Shown here piece after piece: positions 41,701 through 55,543 of a stretch of DNA of 64,000 nt (the stretch's first letter is position 1; each line of letters starts with the position of its first letter). Both the position numbers and the translations under genes were made by a program. The notes beneath the pieces were generated by a model. The model was given only the letters and a program-made list of their open reading frames with translations. It made no database searches and had not been told where the DNA came from. This DNA is from an uncultured Verrucomicrobiota bacterium (lineage in GTDB: Bacteria > Verrucomicrobiota > Verrucomicrobiia > Limisphaerales > UBA9464), in the NCBI GenBank assembly GCA_903922605.1, contig CAIXUG010000056.1, forward strand, positions 62,001 through 126,000, read 5' to 3'.

Positions 41701-44700
41701 CTAGAGAATCCGTTGGGGAACTTTAACGCGGTCTCCATCGCGCAGTTCCAGATCCTGTTCGCGATGGTTATCGTTGACCACTCGGTGGACATCGACCACC
41801 ACGGATGTACCGTCGGCCCGTTGCACCGTGACTTTTCTCAGGTCGGCGAACTGGCTTGGGTGAAGGTCCAACACGGCTTCACTGAGCCAGGTCGGGTGTC
41901 CGGCCAGCAGTTCGATCTTTCCGTTAACATCCCCGAAAAAACGGACCACCCCGGAATATTCCACGGGTGCCTTGGCCGGTTCCGGAGACGCCGCCCGTTG
42001 CGGGGAATCGCCCTTGGCTGGGCCCGCTTCCGTTGAAAGGAGGGGTTGTCCTGGCAGCCAGGAAAATTTGCCATCTTGCCCCAGGAGGGGCTTGGTCTTC
42101 CCGTTTTCGGCAGGGGGGACTGCCGCAGCCGGTGGGTTGGCCTTCTCCACCGCACGTCGCTCGTCCTCCGCCTGTTTCAGGAGCAGTTCGGCAGAGTCCA
42201 CTTCCGCTTGGGAAACTTGGCCGGCTGAAAGCTCGAGACGCTTTATTTTCAGCATTCCCTGACGATATTCCACGTGGACCTGTGCCGCCCACAGCGGTTG
42301 GTGAAGCAGTTCCGCCTCCGACACGTTCAAATCTCGGCTGGCCAGAATGAATTGGGCGGGCGAAGTCCGGCCGGTCCTGATCTTTGCCTCCTCGTCCAAA
42401 TAGTGATTCCATGCCGGAAGCCACTTCAGTTCCGCCAGATTGGTGGTATCGCGGCCAATCGTTTCCGTGAACGCGGACCGGACTTTCATCTGCTCCAACC
42501 GCGCCTGCTCCACGTCAGCGTGGGTGGCACTGCCGACCGCTTCCAGCTTGCGAGCACTGGAAAACAGGATTGCCGCCCGCTTCAGCCGGACAATGGCCGC
42601 GAGTCGGGGATCGCCCCTGAGCTTGCCCTCCGCCTCGGCGACGGCCACCTCCGCGTCCAGGACCTCCGTACCCTGTGGCGCGACCATTCCGACTTCTGCC
42701 TGTTTCTTCAGCTCGGCGAGCCGGTTCTGCGCGAATTGAAGTTCCTGGACGGTAATCTCGGCATCGCCTTTGGAGAAAGTCGCTGCAGCCGTATCGGGCG
42801 ACGCCAATTTTTGGACGGAGGCCTGCGTGGCCGGCGTCTGGCCTCGGATTTCGAGGGTGACCTGTTCCGTGCCAAAGAAAGCGAGCCAGACTGGTGTATT
42901 AAACTTGAGCGGCAGATCACCAGCCACGAATTCGTTCGCCTTCGCGAGGATCTGGTCGGGGTTTCCCTGGTGGTTGATGAAGAAGATTCCGCCTTCGGTC
43001 TCGTCGCCGCCCTGGACCGTCAGCCGCACATCGTCGCCTTGGCGCTCGAAAAGCACAGCCACCGTCGTGGAGTAGTCGCCCCCGCCGGACCGCTTGAGGG
43101 GAACAACTTTGCTGTGGCGGTCGGACGCAAGCAGGACTTCCGCGGGCGCGGTCGAGCGCAATTCCCAGCGCAGGCGCACCTGCGAGTCGGTGGCGGTGCG
43201 TTCCATGCGGATAAGCTGGACCGACCGGTTGGTGGCGGCGTTGGAAGCTTCCACTGGCGGCTTCGGCAACGACTGTCGGAAAACCGCGAGCGACGGTATT
43301 ATCATTCCCGCGACCAGCAGGAGGATCGGCGTCACAACCACGAGCAGCACGGTCCAGAAGAAACGTTGCGGCCAAGGATTCCACGCCGCGCGTGGCTGCG
43401 CCTGCGCGGCCTTGGGGCGTGTCCGCAGGAAGCCGACCACCAGAAACGCCCCGGCGGCCATGGGGATGATTCCTGCCAGCAATCTTCCGGCCCCACCCAG
43501 GCCCGGACCCAACAGCAGTGGACCCACCAGTGCCGCAATCACCGCCGCTACCGGCAGCAGGATCAGCCCGAGCACCAGCCAGAAGAGCCGGTGGGGCCAA
43601 GGGTTGGGCGGCGGATTGAGGATCGGATCATGGTGCATTCCAGGTGCCGTGCGACGGATGCGGTGCCACTGCACCCAACCGGCGATCACGGATGGAATCA
43701 CACCGGCGGCAATCGAGAAGGCCATGATTGCGATGGGAAATTGCGGGCCTTGGAACAACGCGAAAATCCAGTGCGCGGCCTCATCATGCCGGCGGGCGTC
43801 CCAGACGAGCTGGCCGATGGCCAATCCGCCGGCGGCAAACTTGCCGATCGCGAGCCCGCCACCGGCACACAACCCGAGGGCACCGCCGCCCAATGCGAGC
43901 AGCAGGCCGATGCTCAGGCCGCCCACACTCACCAGCCCCAGCGCCAGGCCGGCGAAGGCGAAAAATCCCAGGGCCAGCCCGCCAAACGCGATTCCGCCAA
44001 TGGCCACCCCACCAAAGGCGAACAGGCCGCGCGCGTAACCGCCGATGGCGATAACCCCCACGGCTTTCTGTCCCATGGCGATGATGCCGCGTGCCACCCG
44101 GACCTGGCCGGTGGCGGGGTCGCGCCCGTAGGCGACGTGGACGAGCGGGCGTCCGAACAGCGTGCGCGGGGATTTGTATTCGTAATTCGCCGACCACGAT
44201 GCGGCGGCCGAACGCGCGGCCTCTTGGGCGTCGTGGGCGGCCTGGATTGCCGAGGCCGCCGGATCGGCGGCCGGGGCCTGAGGATTTGCGGCCACCGTCT
44301 CCACCTGCGTCTTCATCTCGCCGGCGCTCTGCTGGCGCAGTTCGCGCTCCTTGGCTAGTGCCCGCATCACGATCTCGTCCACCCGCGCGTCGAGCGGGGT
44401 CTTGGCGGAGGGCGCGGCGAAACGCCCGAGCGGCAGCTCGCCGGTGAGCAGTTCGTAAAACACCACACCGAGCGAGTAGATGTCGGCGCGATGATCGACT
44501 TCGGAGGGTTTCTCGATCTGCTCGGGCGCCATGTAGTGCGGTGTGCCGAGCCGCGCACCGCTCTGGGTCAGCGTGAGGCCTGTTTGGGGATCGCTGGGAT
44601 CACCCACCAGCTTGGCGATGCCGAAGTCGGCGATCTTCACGCGCCCCTGGCCGTCGAGCAGGATGTTCTCGGGCTTGATGTCGCGGTGCAGTACGCCCTG

Positions 44701-45234
44701 GTCGTGCGCGTATTGAAGCGCGGAGCAGATGTCGGGCACGATCGCGAGCGCCTGGGCCGGCGAGAAGCGGCCCGCCTGCATCGCCTGCCGCAGGTTCACG
44801 CCGTCCACAAACTCCATCAGCAGGTAGCAGAAGCCGCCCGATTCGCCGAAGTCGAAGACGGAGACGATGTGCGGGTGCGTGAGCCGGGCGAGGAAGCGCG
44901 CCTCGCGGTGGAAGCGTTCGGCGAAGGCGGGATCGGCCCCGTGGGACTGGGGCAGGAGCTTCAGCGCGACCACCCGGTCGAGCTTGGGCTGGCGGGCCTT
45001 GTACACCACGCCCATGCCGCCGATCCCGATGAGTTCCAGGATCTCGAACTGCGGAAAGGCTGCCGCCACGGCCTCCATCGGTGGTGGCGTGAGCCGGCTG
45101 CCGGATTTCGCCCCGGTCTCGGTCGGGGTCGCCGCGCGGGCGAGCACGCAGCGGGGGCAGAGACCCTGCGGCGCGTCGGGCGGGACGGTGCCGCCGCACT
45201 GGGGGCAGCGGTTTGGGACAGATTCAGAGTTCAT
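41701..45234 (-). CDS. Transmembrane Ser/Thr protein kinase with zinc ribbon, Gly-rich repeat region, coiled coil and SLBB-like C-terminus
   Basis: 1177 residues. A zinc ribbon (CPQCG at 10-14, CPRC at 26-29) opens the protein. The kinase domain has GIGGMG (70-75), VALK (Lys92), HRDIKPEN (183-190) and DFG (203-205). Residues about 390-500 form a run of short repeats such as GGVAIGGIAFGGLALG. Several TM segments follow near 510-660. A coiled-coil segment of about 200 residues (around 840-1050) resembles periplasmic TolC/HlyD-type heptads. The C-terminus (FFGDVNGKIELLAGHPTWLS to DLELRDGDRVKVPQRIL) has the pattern of an SLBB domain. The combination suggests sensing of a ligand or glycan outside and signalling inside, with the adjacent sigma factor as a likely target. 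Key catalytic residues are intact. Confidence 0.85.
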   Translation of the reverse strand: MNSESVPNRCPQCGGTVPPDAPQGLCPRCVLARAATPTETGAKSGSRLTPPPMEAVAAAFPQFEILELIGIGGMGVVYKARQPKLDRVVALKLLPQSHGADPAFAERFHREARFLARLTHPHIVSVFDFGESGGFCYLLMEFVDGVNLRQAMQAGRFSPAQALAIVPDICSALQYAHDQGVLHRDIKPENILLDGQGRVKIADFGIAKLVGDPSDPQTGLTLTQSGARLGTPHYMAPEQIEKPSEVDHRADIYSLGVVFYELLTGELPLGRFAAPSAKTPLDARVDEIVMRALAKERELRQQSAGEMKTQVETVAANPQAPAADPAASAIQAAHDAQEAARSAAASWSANYEYKSPRTLFGRPLVHVAYGRDPATGQVRVARGIIAMGQKAVGVIAIGGYARGLFAFGGVAIGGIAFGGLALGFFAFAGLALGLVSVGGLSIGLLLALGGGALGLCAGGGLAIGKFAAGGLAIGQLVWDARRHDEAAHWIFALFQGPQFPIAIMAFSIAAGVIPSVIAGWVQWHRIRRTAPGMHHDPILNPPPNPWPHRLFWLVLGLILLPVAAVIAALVGPLLLGPGLGGAGRLLAGIIPMAAGAFLVVGFLRTRPKAAQAQPRAAWNPWPQRFFWTVLLVVVTPILLLVAGMIIPSLAVFRQSLPKPPVEASNAATNRSVQLIRMERTATDSQVRLRWELRSTAPAEVLLASDRHSKVVPLKRSGGGDYSTTVAVLFERQGDDVRLTVQGGDETEGGIFFINHQGNPDQILAKANEFVAGDLPLKFNTPVWLAFFGTEQVTLEIRGQTPATQASVQKLASPDTAAATFSKGDAEITVQELQFAQNRLAELKKQAEVGMVAPQGTEVLDAEVAVAEAEGKLRGDPRLAAIVRLKRAAILFSSARKLEAVGSATHADVEQARLEQMKVRSAFTETIGRDTTNLAELKWLPAWNHYLDEEAKIRTGRTSPAQFILASRDLNVSEAELLHQPLWAAQVHVEYRQGMLKIKRLELSAGQVSQAEVDSAELLLKQAEDERRAVEKANPPAAAVPPAENGKTKPLLGQDGKFSWLPGQPLLSTEAGPAKGDSPQRAASPEPAKAPVEYSGVVRFFGDVNGKIELLAGHPTWLSEAVLDLHPSQFADLRKVTVQRADGTSVVVDVHRVVNDNHREQDLELRDGDRVKVPQRIL

Positions 45235-47074: not shown

Positions 47075-49747
47075 GTGACGCTCTACGACCAACTCCTCAA
47101 GGCCGGCTCGACCTCCAACGACGCCCTGCTCGGCGGCTTTCTGGATTACGTCACCGCCAAGGGACTCGAACTCTACCCGGCGCAGGAGGAGGCTATCCTG
47201 GAGCTGTTCGACGGGAAGAACGTCATCCTCAACACGCCAACCGGCTCGGGCAAATCGCTTGTCGCGTCGGCCCTGCATTTCCAATCGCTCGCGAAGGGAC
47301 GCCGCTCCTTCTACACCTGCCCGATCAAGGCACTCGTGAACGAGAAGTGGCTTGCCTTCTGCCGCGAGTTCGGGCCGGAAAATGTCGGCCTGAGCACCGG
47401 CGACGCCACGGTCAACCACGACGCCCCGATCGTGTGCTGCACGGCGGAAATTCTCGCCAACATCGCCCTACGCGACGGCGAACACGCCTTGGTTCACGAC
47501 GTGGTGATGGACGAGTTCCACTACTACTCCGACCGCGAGCGCGGCGTGGCGTGGCAGGTGCCGCTGCTCACGCTGCCGCAGACGCGCTTCCTGCTGATGT
47601 CGGCCACGCTGGGCGAGACGGCCTTCTTCGAGTCGGAGATGACGCGGGTGAACCGCCGCCCGAGTGTCACAATCAAGGGCACGACCCGGCCGGTGCCGCT
47701 GGAGTTCTCCTACGCCGAAACACCGCTCGCGACGACGCTGGAAAAACTCATCACCGACGGCAAGGGACCGGTCTATGTCGTCCATTTCACGCAGGCCGAG
47801 GCGGCGGAAAGCGCACAGGATTTCACCAGCATCAACGTCGCCTCGCGCGAGGAAAAGGCGGCCATCGCGAGCGCGATCGAGGGCTTCAAGTTCGGCAGCC
47901 CCTACGGCCCCGAGCTGAAGAAGTGGCTGCGGCACGGCATCGGACTGCATCACGCGGGGCTGCTGCCCAAGTACCGCATCCTCGTCGAGCAGCTCGCGCA
48001 GCGCGGCCTGCTGCGGGTCATCTGCGGCACCGACACGCTGGGCGTGGGCATCAATCTGCCGATCCGCACCGTGCTCTTCACCCGGCTGTGCAAATACGGC
48101 GGCGAAAAGGTCGCGATCCTCAGCGCGCGCGATTTCCACCAGATCGCCGGCCGCGCGGGACGCAAGGGCCATGACAATGTCGGCTGGGTGGTCGCGCAGG
48201 CCCCCGAGCACGTGATCGAGAATCTCAAGCTGGAGGAAAAGGCGAAGAGCAGCGGCAAGAAGATCGTGAAGCGCCAGGCGCCGGAGAAGAACTTCGTGAA
48301 CTGGGACGCGAAGACCTTCGAACGGCTCCAGACCGCCGCGCCGGAGGCACTCACGTCGCGCTTCCAGGTCACGCACGCGATGCTGCTCAACGTGCTCGGC
48401 CGCCCCGGTGACGGCTGCGCCGCCATGCGCGAGCTGATTCGCACCTGCCACGATTCCGCGAAGCAGAAGAAGGCGCACGCGAAACGCGCCTGGCAGCTTT
48501 TTCGCTCGCTGCTGGACCGTCAGATCATCGAGTTCATCCCGCCCACACCCGAGGGGGCGAAACTCCGCGTCAACGTCACGTTGCCCGAAGATTTCTCGCT
48601 GAACCAGGTGCTGTCGCTGTTCCTGCTCGATTCGATCCCCGCCCTCAATGCCGAGGCGCCCGACTACGCGCTCGACCTCATCTCCCTGATTGAGGGCATT
48701 CTCGAAAGCCCCGAGGTCATCCTGCGCGCACAGCTGAGCCGGCTGAAGGGCCAGAAGATCGCCGAGCTGAAGGCGCAGGGCATGGAGTACGATCAGCGCA
48801 TGGAAGAGCTGGAGAAGCAGGAACCGCCCAAGCCCAAGCCGGAGTTCTTCTACCCGCTCTTCAACGCGTGGTCGGACCGGCATCCGTGGGTGGGCACCGA
48901 GAATCTCCGGCTGAAATCCGTCGCGCGCGAGATGTTCGAAGAGTTCCGCTCCTTCGCCGACTACATCAAGATTTACGAGCTGCAACGAGCCGAGGGCGTG
49001 CTGCTGCGCCACCTGAACAGCGTGTACAAGGTGCTCTCCCAGACCGTGCCCGAGGGGGCCAAGACGGACGCCGTCCGCGACATGGAAGTGTATCTCGCGA
49101 CGATGCTGCGACAGGTCGATTCCAGCCTGCTCGACGAGTGGGAGAAGATGCGCGATCCGAACTACCGGCCGCCCTCCACCGACGCGCCGGAGGTGCGCCC
49201 GCCCGGCGCCGAGGAAGCCGCCCAGGACATCACGCGCGACGTAAAGCCCTTCACCGCGGCGATCCGCACGAAGGTCTTCACCTTCCTGCGCGCCGTGGCG
49301 AACGAGGAGTTTGAGGCGGCGCTCGCGGTCGTGACGTTGACCGAAGAGGAGGGCGGCAAAGTGAGCCAGTCAGCCAGTGAGCCAGTGGGTCAAAGTGGAG
49401 AAGTGCCGCCTACGCCTCCCGCTGATCCTGCCGCCGATGACCTCGTAAATCGTAAATCAAAAATCGTAAATCCAGCCGATCTTCGCGCCGCCTTCGACTC
49501 CTACTACGCCTCCGGCCACCGCTACCTCTGCCTCGATCCGGCCGCCCGAAATCTTCGTCACACCTACGTCATTCCGTCCGAAGACAAGAAAACCTGGCGC
49601 GTGCAGCAAGTGCTCGTGGACCCGGAGGAGCACAACGACTGGCTGGTCGAATTCGACGTGGACCTCGCCGAATCCCGCGCGAAGAAGGAACCGGTGCTGC
49701 GGTTGCGGAGAGTGGGGGCCGTGGGTTCGATCACGGCTGCACCATGA
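47075..49747 (+). CDS. Ski2-like DEAD/DEAH-box helicase with DUF3516
   Basis: 890 residues from a GTG at 47075; the in-frame region to 46910 is repeat DNA. Motifs [22 protein letters not shown] and [13 protein letters not shown] are present, and [17 protein letters not shown] is the Ski2/Mtr4-family segment. The C-terminal half matches the DUF3516 type seen in bacterial homologues. Family members unwind RNA or DNA with 3' to 5' polarity. A run [14 protein letters not shown] at residues about 789-802 is encoded by an R3-like repeat (AAATCGTAAATC) and sits in a variable acidic linker, preceded by an [13 protein letters not shown] stretch. The stop overlaps the following lipoprotein start by four bases. 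Confidence 0.88.
49439..49475. repeat. R3 word repeat inside the helicase gene
   Basis: CTCGTAAATCGTAAATCAAA followed by AATCGTAAATCC (49441-49473) is three near-copies of CGTAAATC. The repeat keeps the helicase reading frame and encodes [11 protein letters not shown]. It has the composition of the intergenic R3 repeats and lies in a part of the protein that looks non-conserved. Confidence 0.65.
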
Positions 49748-52101
49748 ACCGGTTTCCGATCGCCAGCCTGCTGCTCGTGGTCCTCACATTGGCGGCTGGC
49801 TGCCGGTCGCAAATGGGAACGTCCGGCGACCTTTCGTGGCCGACCTTCCTGGTCACCCATGACGACACGGTCATCACGCAGTCGTGCTGGGTGAAGATTC
49901 CGGCAGGCACGGTGATCGCCGACACCAACGGTGACGGTATCATACACATCAGGGCGGACAATGTGAGCGTGCGGTTCGTGCCCGGCTCCGAGCTGCGCGG
50001 TGCGCCGGCCGGCACCCCCTGGGACCAACTGACCGGCATGGGCATCCGCGTGGACGGCCATCGCGGCGTGACGATCGAGGGGGCGGCAGTTCACGGCTTC
50101 AAATGCGGCCTGGTGGCCACGCATGCCGACGGGCTGGTCGTCTCGGGCGGCGATTATTCCGACAACTACCGGCAGCATCTGAAATCCACCCCGACCGCCG
50201 AGGACGGCGCGGACTGGCTCTTCCCGCACCACAACGACGAGACCAAGTGGCGCGACGAATACGGCGGCGCGGTGTGCGTGGAGTTGTCATCGAACATCAC
50301 GGTGCGCGACGTCCGCGTGCGGCGCGGGCAGAACGGCATCGTGCTCGACCGTGTGAACGGCTCGGCGATCTACGACAACGACTGCTCGTTCCTCTCCGGC
50401 TGGGGGCTGGCGCTGTGGCGCAGCAGCACTAACAGGGTCAGCCGGAACGCCTTCGACTTCTGCGTGCGCGGCCACGTCGAGGACGTTTACAACCGGGGGC
50501 AGGATTCCGCCGGGATCCTCTGCTTCGAGCAGTGCAACGACAACGTCTTCGCGGAGAACTCCGTGACCCACGGCGGCGACTGCTTCTTCGGCTTCGCGGG
50601 CCACGAGGCCATCGGCGAGACCTGGATGGACCAAGAGCGCGAACGCCTGCGCAAGGCCACCGGCAAGGAGGAGGTGGACGACCTCATCCATCCGCCCGCC
50701 GAACTCGTCCGCACGCTGAGTGCGCTGGGCTGCAACCGGAATCTGCTCATCGGAAACGACTTCTCGTACTCCCCCGCGCATGGCATCGAGATGACCTTCT
50801 CGGAGGGCAACCGCTTCGTGCGGAACCGGCTCGTCGAGAATGCGATCTGCGGCGTCTGGGGCGGCTACTCGTCGGGCACGCTCATCGCGGAGAACGAGTT
50901 TACGGGCAATGGCGGCATGGCCTACGGGCTGGAGCGCGGCGCGATCAACATGGAGCACGCCGCCGACAACCTGGTCGTCAGCAACCGCTTCGTGAACAAC
51001 AAGGCGGCGGTGCATCTCTGGTGGAACGAAAGCGCGCTGATGAAATTCCCCGGCGTCGCAGGCACCGAGCGCGGCGTGACCGGCAACGTGATTTCGGGCA
51101 ACTGGTTTGAGATCAACCGGGACGTGCCGTTCGCGAACTTGCGGCGTGAGGAAAAGTTGGTGGTTCTGCAGCTTCGCAGTCCTCCCGGCGGTCATGTGAC
51201 GAACAATGTTTACACCGCGAACGAGGTCCGGCTGTCGCACCCGCAGGCGGTGGAATTCGCCGTCGAGTCGGGCTGCGAACCGGTGACCGCTGGCGCCACG
51301 CCGCAGTATGCGTGGCTGCCCTATGAGGCGCTGGGCCGCCGGCATCCGGTCGGCGCTCGGGCCTTCTTGCGCGGACGCAGCCAGATCCTCATGGATGAGT
51401 GGGGCCCGTGGGATCATGCGAGCCAGATGGTGCGTCCGGTGAAGGCTGCGCCCAATGAACACGCGTTCGAGCTGTTCGGCGTGAAGCCGCCGGTCACCGT
51501 GCGGGTGCTCGCGGGCGCGGTGACGCCGGTCGTGGAGGCCGGCGATCCCACCCGGCTGCGGCTGCAGAGCCGGGCGGGCGTGACCGGCTATCGCGTCCGC
51601 CTCAATGCCGAGCTGTTCACCCGCGAACTCGCCGGCACCATCATCGCCACCGAGTGGAAGCTGAAGGTGTTCCCCTGGACCGCCCCCACCGATCCGCGCA
51701 CGAATCTCCTAGCTTGGCGGCAACTGGCGGACGGCCCCGAAGCCTTCGCCGCCACCGCCCCCGTGCTCGACTTCCCCTACGGCGGAGGCGGCCCGCGCAC
51801 GATGAAACTCTCCGACGAGATCACCGCGCGCGGCCCGGGCAACGACCACTTCGGCATGATTGCCCGCACGCGCCTTGCGCTGCCGGCTGGCCGCTGGCGT
51901 CTCACCACCCTGAGCGACGACGGCGTCCGCGTGCTGGTGGATGGCCGCCCGATCATCGAGAACTGGGCCTGGCACGGCCCGACCACCGACGAGGCCGTCT
52001 TCACCCAGCCCCAATCCGGCGACGTGGACCTCGTCGTGGAGCACTTCGAGATCGACGGGTTTGCGACGCTGCGGGTGGATATTATGGCAGATAAGCCGTA
52101 G
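49744..52101 (+). CDS. Right-handed parallel beta-helix lipoprotein with a PA14-like C-terminus
   Basis: 785 residues. The N-terminus ends in a lipobox (LAAGC at 17-21). Residues about 60-500 have the repeated pattern of a parallel beta helix (e.g. [77 protein letters not shown]). The C-terminal region ([21 protein letters not shown]...[26 protein letters not shown]) has the pattern of a PA14-like carbohydrate-binding domain. Likely a surface protein that binds or cleaves polysaccharide; no catalytic residues are obvious. The start overlaps the helicase stop by four bases (ATGA). Confidence 0.72.
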
Positions 52102-52104
52102 CAG

Positions 52105-53223
52105 TCACTTCGGCCACTCGCTCACGCGCTCCCAATACTTTCTCAACCACTTCATGTGGTCCTTGGGGCTCGGCATTGAGTTGGCCAAAGCCAGTGATCC
52201 GAGTGATTTGTCCGGCCAGAGGTGCAGGCGGTCGCTGATGCCGATTTCCTTGGCAAGACGTTCGACCGTCTGTAGCGCAGACACAGCATATTTCTGCCAA
52301 CTCTGACGGGACTCGAAGACCTCCGTCCGCAACTTGATGCCGAGGGAACTGGCTTGGGTCTCAATACGTGCCACGTTCTCCGCACGAATATTGATGGGCT
52401 CGTGGAAGACGGTCTTGGGCCTCAGTTCGGCAATGGCTTTGAGCGTGGCCCGCAGGTCGGTCTCGTCACATTCGGGATAGGTCGGAGCGACGGCCACGTA
52501 GACATGCAGGCCAGCGTCGCGGGCGGCCTGGAGCGTGGTGAGGCGCTGCGAGGGTGCCGGGGCTTTCGGTTCGTAAATCTTGGCAAGGTCGTTCCGCAAT
52601 GTCGGCAGGCTCATGCCGAACAGCAGGCGCGGGCCGAAGCTGCGGAAGAGTTCAAAATCCGCCCGGGCCAACGGGCTGCGCGTAAGAATACGGACATTGA
52701 GAGTGGAGTGGTCGCGGATCAGCTCTAAGGAACGACGGACCAGATAGCGGGCTTGGCGGCTTAGCTCACGTTGCTTTTCCGGGTTCGGATGATGGATGAC
52801 CTGGTAAGGGTCGGTCGTGCTGCAATACATCACTGCCCGGTTTCCGTCGGGCTTCAATCGGTCGCGCGGCGTGTTCTCAGCGGAACGGAGCGACGCCAGA
52901 AACTTGTCCTCATCGAAAGGCCGCAGCAGCACGTAGTCGCCCCATTCGGCGTCCGGATCTTTAACGCCGTATTCGGCCAGCTTCGGGGCCTGCTTGATGG
53001 TCGCCGCGCTCGGCACGTAGCAGAACCGGCATGCATGCGAGCAGCCGACCGCAATGTTGAAGGCCCAATCGGAGAGGCTTTTGTAGACGAAATTGTTGGG
53101 AGCGATGACTGCGGGCGAGGACCAGATGCCGACGCGGTCTTCGAGGGGCGGACGCACTGTACGCCACCGCTTCAAATGCACGCTTTCGACGGTCACTTTC
53201 GCTGTGTCTAAGAAAGTCGTCAT
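52105..53223 (-). CDS. Radical SAM protein, SPL-like, in the three-Cys-motif (TcmP) system
   Basis: 372 residues from an ATG at 53223. The Fe-S motif is CSHACRFC (Cys61, Cys65, Cys68), a CXXXCXXC. The body reads as a partial TIM barrel with VMYCSTTDPYQVIHH and LNVRILTRSPLARADFELF, as in spore-photoproduct-lyase-like radical SAM proteins. It is the standard partner of TcmP: the gene overlaps the tcmP stop by four bases (ATGA). Members of this pair are found in sparse, mobile distribution; the reaction is not established. The gene ends 4 bp after the beta-helix gene stop on the other strand. Confidence 0.85.
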   Translation of the reverse strand: MTTFLDTAKVTVESVHLKRWRTVRPPLEDRVGIWSSPAVIAPNNFVYKSLSDWAFNIAVGCSHACRFCYVPSAATIKQAPKLAEYGVKDPDAEWGDYVLLRPFDEDKFLASLRSAENTPRDRLKPDGNRAVMYCSTTDPYQVIHHPNPEKQRELSRQARYLVRRSLELIRDHSTLNVRILTRSPLARADFELFRSFGPRLLFGMSLPTLRNDLAKIYEPKAPAPSQRLTTLQAARDAGLHVYVAVAPTYPECDETDLRATLKAIAELRPKTVFHEPINIRAENVARIETQASSLGIKLRTEVFESRQSWQKYAVSALQTVERLAKEIGISDRLHLWPDKSLGSLALANSMPSPKDHMKWLRKYWERVSEWPK

Positions 53224-54131
53224 GGTTTCAGTATATTCTCAGCGATCCTGACTGCAATTTTGCCACCGTTACCTGGGTTTCCAGCAGCAAAGTACAACAG
53301 ATAGAGGGGGCAGTTCGAGCTGTTGAGCAATGGCAAAGGATTTTTTGCGACATGCGGAAAAACGGTCTTCAGACGCTTTAGAAAATATCGGCTGATGGCG
53401 TCGAAGTTTGCGACTTTGCGTGTCTCGATGACCGGTAAGTCGCTAAGCAATTCGTATTGCTCAGTTTGTTTGTAGAACTCATCAAACCAGTCCGTCGCTC
53501 CGAATGTCGCATCGAGTCGGGTCCGCCATGAGTTCGGAATAACTCCATTGCGTGTGAGGAGTCGGTTCGCACCTGTTCCAAGAGGAAAGAGCAACCAGAG
53601 ATCAATCGCGCCAGTCTTGGCGATGGCAGTGATTGTTTTCCAAGTGACCTGCATCCCGAAAGGGTCGAGAAAAAGTACCGCACGCCGGTTGTTCCAATTC
53701 CGTTTCAGACATAGCTCGTCGAGATAGCTAGTCGCCTCTGTATTCTTGAACTCCAGCTTGCCTTTGAGGTTCGGAAACTTATCGCCCAATTGGATCAATT
53801 CCCTATACCGAGCTGGACTACGCTCAATGAAGATATATTGGTCAAATTGCGGTTCAACCTTCAATGCTACCTGAGCGGAGCCTTCGAGAAACTGCCGTGA
53901 TTCCTCAGAATGCAATCCTTCAAAGAACGGCGCGAACTCGTCATCGATTTCTTTTGGAGTATTATAGCCTGTTCCGGCGAATGCGTCGATGTACGCAAAG
54001 CGAAAACCGCGCCCCTGTTTCCGCAATGCATTCATGATTGTCGCATAAGCGACCAGATACTTTCGGACGCGTTCAAGTTTCTCAGAAGTCCAATCTCCCC
54101 CGAATTGCTGCTTAGTTCCTTCTTTTGGCAT
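53220..54131 (-). CDS. tcmP: Three-Cys-motif partner protein TcmP
   Basis: 303 residues from an ATG at 54131; a GTG at 54137 would add two. The N-terminus (MPKEGTKQQFGGDWTSEKLERVRKYL) is that of TcmP. IDAFAGTGYN (48-57) looks like the SAM-binding glycine loop of methyltransferases, FIERSP resembles the acidic residue after strand 2, and LDPFGMQV (155-162) resembles the catalytic DPPY/DPFG motif. The gene is clearly richer in A and T than its neighbours, which suggests acquisition. Paired with a radical SAM gene downstream by a four-base overlap. Methyltransferase activity is an inference; no activity is known to me for this family. Confidence 0.85.
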   Translation of the reverse strand: MPKEGTKQQFGGDWTSEKLERVRKYLVAYATIMNALRKQGRGFRFAYIDAFAGTGYNTPKEIDDEFAPFFEGLHSEESRQFLEGSAQVALKVEPQFDQYIFIERSPARYRELIQLGDKFPNLKGKLEFKNTEATSYLDELCLKRNWNNRRAVLFLDPFGMQVTWKTITAIAKTGAIDLWLLFPLGTGANRLLTRNGVIPNSWRTRLDATFGATDWFDEFYKQTEQYELLSDLPVIETRKVANFDAISRYFLKRLKTVFPHVAKNPLPLLNSSNCPLYLLYFAAGNPGNGGKIAVRIAENILKP

Positions 54132-54184
54132 GAGCACTAATAATACGAAAGTTGGTTGGAAAAGGATAGTCTTGGCGTATGTGT

Positions 54185-55543
54185 CTACTCCTTCAGCAGC
54201 TTCTTGATCGCCCCCATCAGCACCGGTTCGGCTTCGGGGCCGACGTTGGAGGAGCGGGGTTCGGTCTCGTAGCCGCCTTCGGTGTAGGCGCGGGCGGTGC
54301 CGATGTACCAGGGGCCGTAATCACCATAGGCGGCCATCGCCACGAAGCGGTCGGGACGCTCGGCCTTCGCGGCGAGCTGGTATTCCACGAAGAGTTCGCC
54401 GGGCAGGTGCAGCAGCCGGGCGCGGCCGAGCGTCAGGCAGGTGACGTCGAGCTTGCGGCCTGCCTGGCAGAGGCGCAGCCACGCTAGCCGGGAGGCGCCG
54501 CTCTGCGTGATGAACGAGCCGGCCCGGCCCCGCATCTCGGCCTCCACCTGGGCGACGTCGATGCGCTTCGACGGCGGGATCACGACGGATTCAATGCGCC
54601 AGGCCACGTCGGCGGCGGTGATCGGTTCGCGCTTGGTATTGTCCCAGGCGCGCTTCATGCCGTCGGCGAGGCGCTGGGCGAGCACGAGGCGGTTGGTGGG
54701 CGAGCCGTCGTTGTACTTGCCCGCGCCGATGTTGCCGCCCGCACCGTTGAAGTGGACGTGCAGCGCCTCGGGCACCGCAAGCTGGCGCAGGAAGCGCGCG
54801 AGGCCGGGGAAGTCAGGATTCGGGATGCCGGTGCGGTAGTAGCTCTGAGGGTGTGTGGCGTAGTAGCTGAGCACGGCGACGGGATGATTCGTGTTCCAGA
54901 AGCTCACGAGGGAAACCTCGGGATCGATCGTGCCCTCCGGTTCCGCGCGCAGGGCCGCGTCGGGCGTCGCGGTGTAGCGCACGGCGCGCACCTTGCCATC
55001 GGGGCCGAAGATGCGGCGGTTCGACGCGACCTGATACACCGGTGCGACCCCGAGGCCGAGGTGCGTCACCGGTTCCGCGTGCGCCAGCGATTCGTGCACT
55101 GCGGCAGCGAGGCGACGCAGGGCTTCACGCTGGAAGGTACCCTCGAAATTCAGCGGATCGATGCCGGCGTCCTTCAGGATCTTCTCCGCACCGAAATCGC
55201 AGTCCGGAGCGTCGTGCTGGTGCAGCGTGTGGACGGTGACGCGGGCGGGCACGGTGTCGGCCGCGGTGGCGAGTGCGGCCCGAAATAGATCGTGGCTCTC
55301 GTTGGCAATGCCGATCCAGTCCACCGCGCACAGCACGATGGGCTGGCCGGCGCCGAGCAGCACGATGCCCCGGGCGCGCAGGCCGAGGTCCCAGGTGTTG
55401 GTGACCGTGTCGTACGCCATGCGGCTGCCGACGGGCGGGGTGACGTCGACGTCAAAGGTGGCCACGCGCAGTGCATCCGCCTGGGCGATACCGACGACGA
55501 GGAGGAACGCGGTGAAGGCGAGAGCGACGTGGCGGCGAAGCAT
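54185..55543 (-). CDS. Neutral/alkaline ceramidase-like hydrolase (secreted)
   Basis: 452 residues from an ATG at 55543. A signal peptide ([19 protein letters not shown]) precedes [19 protein letters not shown], the start of the neutral ceramidase N-terminal domain. [13 protein letters not shown] and [12 protein letters not shown] carry His residues in positions similar to the zinc ligands of the family, and [15 protein letters not shown] is a further family-like segment. Such proteins hydrolyse N-acyl bonds of sphingolipids; in bacteria many have unknown substrates. The chain lacks the C-terminal domain found in full ceramidases. Likely periplasmic. It begins just left of an R3 repeat. Confidence 0.85.

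Follow-up and report, generated by a model that had tools for sequence, protein, structure and literature searches.

In a stretch of 64,000 nucleotides (hereafter, the window) of the genome of a Verrucomicrobiota bacterium, related to genomes entered as Limisphaerales or as Verrucomicrobia subdivision 3, two overlapping genes raise the question of what a methyltransferase-like protein, TcmP, and a radical SAM protein do together. A preliminary description of the window had suggested that they are a sparsely distributed nucleic-acid modification or defence module of unknown chemistry. Our own proposal, to which we give a little less than even weight, is that the pair is a mobile, modular, two-step nucleic-acid modification system.

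Location and base composition of the pair

The gene tcmP occupies positions 53220-54137 of the minus strand and encodes, from a GTG start, a methyltransferase-like protein of 305 amino acids (TIGR04474, PDC-M41A); an in-frame ATG at 54131, two codons after the GTG on the same strand, is an alternative start. The radical SAM gene (52105-53223, minus strand) lies downstream of it in the direction of transcription, and encodes a protein of 372 amino acids that resembles spore photoproduct lyase (SPL) and contains the cluster motif GCSHACRFCY. The four-base overlap noticed earlier is the sequence ATGA at 53220-53223 (minus strand), common to both genes, which holds the stop of tcmP and the start of the radical SAM gene and through which the two are likely to be translationally coupled. 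The G+C content of tcmP (0.489) is about 4.4 standard deviations below that of the long open reading frames of the window (0.646, standard deviation 0.036, n = 41), which makes it the AT-rich outlier that had been described, and that of the radical SAM gene is mildly low (0.601). Low G+C content is typical of TcmP: in 118 of 121 pairs, tcmP has a lower value than its flanks.

In the closest relative found (G004), the flanks of the pair are 90–93% identical at the DNA level, and the alignment ends at 49705 and restarts at 54185 with 29 bases of G004 between these points, so that about 4.5 kb is missing. The missing stretch (49706-54184, unstranded) comprises the tcmP/radical SAM pair and the gene of a 785-amino-acid NosD/beta-helix/PA14 protein (Pfam; 49744-52101, plus strand), which is convergent with the pair. 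No target-site duplication was seen at the empty site of G004, and the difference may be due either to an insertion in the present genome or to a deletion in G004. Of 39 family genomes, 13 have relatives of the NosD/beta-helix/PA14 gene. Some of these are genus members that lack a TIGR04474 match (a search of seven genus members gave no such match), and the gene is probably no part of the system. It is a variable gene that adjoins the pair: no match was found in G004 or G002, and in other genus members it is 66–83% identical. Further neighbours in the window encode, according to Pfam, a DUF3516 helicase, an ABC-2 membrane protein and an HHH protein; no known defence gene was recognised by Pfam among the neighbours of the pair, and no tRNA or Rfam feature lies within the window. 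The window also encodes, at 41701-45234, a protein of 1177 amino acids with a Ser/Thr protein kinase domain.

TcmP and its active site

The name given to TcmP was borne out. The protein scores 182.6 bits against TIGR04474, for which the curated cut-off is 53, and matches PDC-M41A, the PADLOC model of the A component of PDC-M41, at 4.1e-111. Its predicted model (pLDDT 90.6) is nearest to RlmJ (Z 16.3, 202 residues, 3.3 Å) and then to Trm1, which matches the whole of TcmP (Z 15.3), the best other structure having a Z of 14.0; Foldseek concurs on the fold (E 5e-8). A 54-row TcmP profile detected in the PDB only RlmJ chains at an E value of 0.005 or better (RlmJ, 5e-4), with no match to Trm1, and hhalign aligned TcmP with E. 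coli RlmJ at 1e-6 over 138 columns. RlmJ, the 23S rRNA m6A2030 methyltransferase, is the best relative by both sequence and fold, but TcmP, unlike RlmJ, has no Pfam family match up to an E value of 1, that of RlmJ included.

Both motifs quoted in the preliminary description, the glycine loop IDAFAGTGYN and DPFG, are present in the TcmP of the window. Few residues are invariant among TcmP relatives, and they belong mostly to the SAM loop and the catalytic sites: K20, G55, G57, D158 and P159 are retained in all 54 rows. The invariance of G55 and G57 argues that the SAM pocket has been maintained, in favour of the modification idea. The activity of RlmJ requires K18 and D164 (PMC3814359). TcmP K20 and D158 are likely to be their counterparts, the motif X lysine and the motif IV aspartate both being kept; the pairing of D158 with D164 comes from hhalign, and that of K20 with K18 only from the fold match and the position at the start of the first helix. 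However, motif IV is DPPY in RlmJ and DP[FY]G in TcmP (DPFG in the window), so that N6-adenine chemistry cannot be assumed for TcmP. DPFG or DPYG is found in 67 of 115 TcmPs and DPxG in 83, and the remainder include DQxG. Motif IV divides the TcmP family in this way, with DPxG in PDC-M41-like members and DQxG in many others, and the split may reflect different bases or an altered reaction.

The nearest folds bring RNA into consideration as the substrate. RlmJ and Trm1 (the tRNA G26 N2 methyltransferase) act on rRNA and tRNA, respectively, and the DPFG of TcmP presumably resembles the Trm1 motif. In wybutosine synthesis, Trm5 and the radical SAM enzyme TYW1 both act, and on this model the pair would hypermodify tRNA or rRNA, either shielding the RNA from phage or host nucleases or altering translation during infection. 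We regard this as unlikely, because TcmPs that are about 20% identical beside near-constant partners (see below) would hardly be expected if tRNA or rRNA were modified at one fixed position, and because the genes found near the pairs are DNA-acting defence genes. To our knowledge, neither RlmJ nor Trm1 has a radical SAM partner.

The radical SAM partner

The partner protein exceeds the PF04055 cut-off (34.2 bits, compared with 29.5) and carries CX3CX2C, which places it in the superfamily after which it had been named. Its NCBIfam matches are weak ones to the PA0069 and Rv2578c radical SAM families and include no SPL model up to an E value of 1, and no PADLOC model matches it. The SPL-like character that had been ascribed to it appears in the predicted model (pLDDT 83.4), which is closest to SPL (Z 19.1 over 266 residues; next, 16.1); the CX3CX2C motifs are aligned, and the tyrosine that follows aligns with Y98 of SPL. 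However, the similarity of the sequences is remote (E 2e-4 to 2e-6, about 15% identity), the tyrosine immediately before the third cysteine of SPL is a phenylalanine here, and the present protein, unlike SPL, is encoded in an operon with a methyltransferase. A candidate for the equivalent of the catalytic Cys140 of SPL is C134, which is invariant in a 20-row alignment and not in all rows of another; the region is unaligned in the profile match. The RlmJ/Trm1-like fold of TcmP, its invariant SAM loop and two likely catalytic residues, and the SPL-like model of its partner together support the earlier view of a nucleic-acid-modifying pair.

Many radical SAM enzymes modify proteins, and the remoteness of the SPL match would also suit a radical SAM protein that modifies TcmP itself or a metabolite rather than nucleic acid, with TcmP being regulatory or an ordinary methyltransferase. 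This seems very improbable to us: the scarcity of invariant residues makes a conserved modification site on TcmP unlikely beyond the active site, and the switching of TcmP between two partner families (see below) argues for a shared small target.

Some radical SAM genes of this family contain an insert or appear to be broken. Those of L019 and L022 have an in-frame insert of about 75 bases, which encodes ...TLSSS.EERAG.RSR..., a similar peptide occurs in L024, and there is a 43-base match elsewhere in L014 (L014:16271-16313); the insert is perhaps a dispersed repeat that enters reading frames. At L024:6892-8630, what appears to be a broken radical SAM copy is fused with an HNH-like open reading frame and accompanied by a second partial copy, without TcmP.

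Pairing and distribution

The sparse distribution that had been suggested was confirmed. In the phylum, 29 of 387 genomes contain a TcmP that exceeds the cut-off, and a search of 288 genomes with the radical SAM alignment gave nine matches at E ≤ 1e-20, of which only that of the window itself is strong. Pairs are also present in cyanobacteria (a Nostoc plasmid) and haloarchaea.

TcmP almost never occurs without a radical-SAM-like partner. Among 78 TcmP loci in viral contigs, 76 have a partner within 1.5 kb (DUF5131 in 70, a radical SAM protein in six), and the other two TcmPs extend to the end of the available sequence. One cellular TcmP (L271) stands without an adjoining partner, with a weak radical SAM match at a distance of 6.5 kb. 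The window's radical SAM gene has 12 relatives in genome contigs, nine of them with an adjoining TcmP; radical SAM relatives with no recognised adjoining TcmP are found at L020, L023, L024, L026, L029, L111 and L112. The viral DUF5131 loci include TcmP in 34 of 80 cases, and the 46 with no adjacent TcmP indicate that DUF5131 has other uses. The surroundings of these lone DUF5131 genes at first suggested an association with other DNA methyltransferases, which were found among 11 of 145 near neighbours and five of 144 farther ones (145 of 169 and 144 of 161 available neighbours, the latter being controls from the same regions); the difference is not significant (p 0.20), and the association was dropped as support.

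The three cluster cysteines are spaced differently in the two partner families. All 95 rows of DUF5131 have CX6CX2C followed by a tyrosine, whereas the radical SAM partners have CX3CX2C in 15 of 20 and CX3CX3C in five of 20, the latter viral. The two profiles align weakly (hhalign probability 15%), yet they do so across the cluster motif and the next strands. Two further loci of the radical SAM family may be mentioned: ORF301 of the archaeal two-tailed virus ATV (L029:4932-5837) is a relative without a recognised TcmP, and a Haloarcula plasmid (L031:4497-7020) carries two divergent radical SAM genes of the family and one TcmP near a tyrosine recombinase.

Replacement of TcmP and exchange of partners

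TcmP has been repeatedly replaced beside a conserved partner. In ten window-type pairs from Verrucomicrobiota (45 comparisons), the median identity of the radical SAM proteins is 76.8% (70.8–92.9), compared with 20.7% (11.3–82.6) for the TcmPs; at L019 and L022 the radical SAM proteins are 92.9% identical and the TcmPs 25.5%, the L019 TcmP being frameshift-split and partial and represented by its first part. Eight DUF5131 pairs (28 comparisons) gave medians of 71.0% for DUF5131 and 20.9% for TcmP. When loci are compared, DNA homology breaks off close to where the radical SAM gene starts, except in cases in which the two TcmPs belong to a single type; it also breaks off at or just past the end of the radical SAM gene. 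At L015:6738-6799, 34–62 bases of a radical SAM 3' end remain just upstream of TcmP, which suggests that a second cassette was inserted and the first deleted.

TcmP lineages have also exchanged one partner family for the other at least 10–13 times. In a tree of 115 TcmPs (of 135, after removal of near-copies), built by a quick method that gave long-branch warnings, the partner label requires 13 changes, 10 of which are forced by starred branches, compared with a mean of 18.7 for shuffled labels; the radical SAM label in this tree pools the 15 CX3CX2C and the five viral CX3CX3C partners. The TcmP of L015, whose partner is a radical SAM protein, is 64% identical over 371 residues to that of L001, whose partner is DUF5131, and the TcmPs of L021 and L008 are 66% identical. 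Such repeated swaps suggest that both partner families fulfil one function.

A fast-changing TcmP beside a steadier partner could also arise if the two were a lesion-maker and its antidote. TcmP, as the effector, would then damage the nucleic acid of phage or host by modifying it, and the SPL-like enzyme would reverse the modification for the host; TcmP, and not the reverser, would diversify under phage pressure, and phages would carry the reverser alone as a counter-defence. SPL, the closest fold of the radical SAM protein, does reverse a covalent DNA lesion, and both the near-constant presence of a partner beside TcmP and the frequency of viral DUF5131 without TcmP agree with this arrangement. 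On the other side, convergent order, which is the commonest among DUF5131 pairs (56 of 102), is unusual for toxin-antitoxin pairs, and no radical SAM enzyme known to us demethylates a base. We judge this explanation to be improbable on the whole, although it gains something from P. aeruginosa, in which PDC-M30 was predicted in 32 of 100 strains and 68.8% of these were phage-resistant, a correlation only (PMC10855318).

Neighbouring genes and defence

The suggestion of a defence module finds support in the family at large, but not in the pair of the window, which adjoins no recognisable defence gene. A survey of the neighbours of tcmP pairs found defence and mobile genes nearby, which speaks for the suggestion. 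A PF02384 methyltransferase gene lies within 10 kb of TcmP in seven of 37 genomes, compared with 0.63 expected (p about 4e-6); the test covered 37 of 44 TcmP-positive genomes, seven with partial or weak matches being omitted, and a PF02384 gene 10.8 kb from the TcmP of G098 fell outside the limit and was uncounted. No match to PF02384 or PF01420 was found in the window's own genome. The Nostoc pair, which is of the radical SAM type, is near the BREX genes pglZ, brxL and brxA, and the annotated neighbours at other pairs include two Abi genes, a DEAD helicase, CHAT, and DUF262 or type ISP restriction-modification genes. In S. meliloti, the TcmP SMa2243 stands beside hna in a table of putative transcriptional units (PMC12445080). 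Type I restriction-modification genes are likewise found beside pairs. Two radical SAM-type loci have Dnd-like genes (L018) and a type IIG-like enzyme (L022), as called in a PADLOC tally of 77 neighbours with the loci assigned by motifs.

A larger PADLOC tally compared 129 of the 142 neighbours of 19 loci (13 over 900 amino acids were dropped) with 129 of 223 control genes; the 20th locus, L269, gave no neighbours, its TcmP having been missed by the gene caller. Type I methylase models matched four to five test members, and the controls gave one Ssp locus and kinases. An HsdM-like gene in the control region L297 was not drawn into this sample, and we therefore rely on the whole-genome distance test rather than on the tally.

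A proposed mechanism

In the two-step system that we propose, TcmP would be an active SAM methyltransferase of the RlmJ/Trm1 type that picks a particular site in either DNA or RNA and targets a base there at its exocyclic amine. One constant radical reaction on the TcmP-treated base would then follow, carried out by the SPL-like partner, both enzymes working in sequence on one substrate. TcmP would set the target, and would be replaced again and again like the specificity genes of restriction systems, and the resulting mark may protect the DNA or RNA of the carrier or cooperate with a neighbouring restriction or BREX-like system. With a second step that does not vary from one system to another, the radical enzyme would be conserved, and one copy could serve two TcmPs. 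A single partner gene with two TcmPs is indeed found at four loci (three Rhizobiaceae plasmids and G194), an arrangement that fits a lesion and its antidote as well as the two-step proposal. Among the observations against the latter are the mixed substrates of the nearest solved relatives, those of TcmP acting on RNA and that of the radical enzyme on DNA, and the position of the window pair outside any defence island.

A wider and somewhat less probable extension of this proposal is that the pairs make modular marks of a new class, epigenetic or immune, in which one radical-SAM chemistry, provided by either the SPL-like or the DUF5131 family in the same role, would be combined with an open-ended set of interchangeable, target-selecting methyltransferases and would yield a hypermodified base not seen so far, both in bacteria and archaea and in the viruses of these. 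Viral contigs, plasmids and the vicinity of defence genes commonly contain TcmP/DUF5131 pairs, and the proposal provides these pairs with a testable chemistry, consisting of a base-amine methyltransferase and an SPL-like radical enzyme with named candidate residues. If true, it would enlarge the set of known nucleic-acid modifications and give SPL-like enzymes a role not known before.

Comparison with known systems

PDC-M41 and PDC-M30, phage-defence candidates in PADLOC-DB v2, consist of TcmP and DUF5131, and the PDC-M41B model matches two DUF5131 proteins at no worse than 1e-101. PADLOC candidates arose by 'guilt by embedding' (PMC10855318). The module is less unfamiliar than the preliminary description held, since the family had already been listed as a candidate. 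In the literature searched, we found no published function for TcmP or DUF5131, and we know of no activity for any member of either family.

Like the pair in the window, PDC-M41 and PDC-M30 are two adjacent genes in mobile contexts, and their radical-SAM-like partner has three cluster cysteines and then a tyrosine. In contrast, their B gene encodes DUF5131 (CX6CX2C), whereas the TcmP of the window adjoins no such B component, its partner being a canonical CX3CX2C radical SAM protein. The pair is also analogous to type I restriction-modification systems, without being a member of them, in combining a catalytic component that stays constant with a target-selecting one that can be exchanged; however, it has no nuclease, translocase or target-recognition subunit, and the part exchanged is the methyltransferase itself. 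Compared with the listed candidates, what is new here is the second partner family, missed by PADLOC, together with the switches of partner, the turnover of TcmP next to a partner that is conserved, which makes the methyltransferase the exchangeable part, and the RlmJ-type active site.
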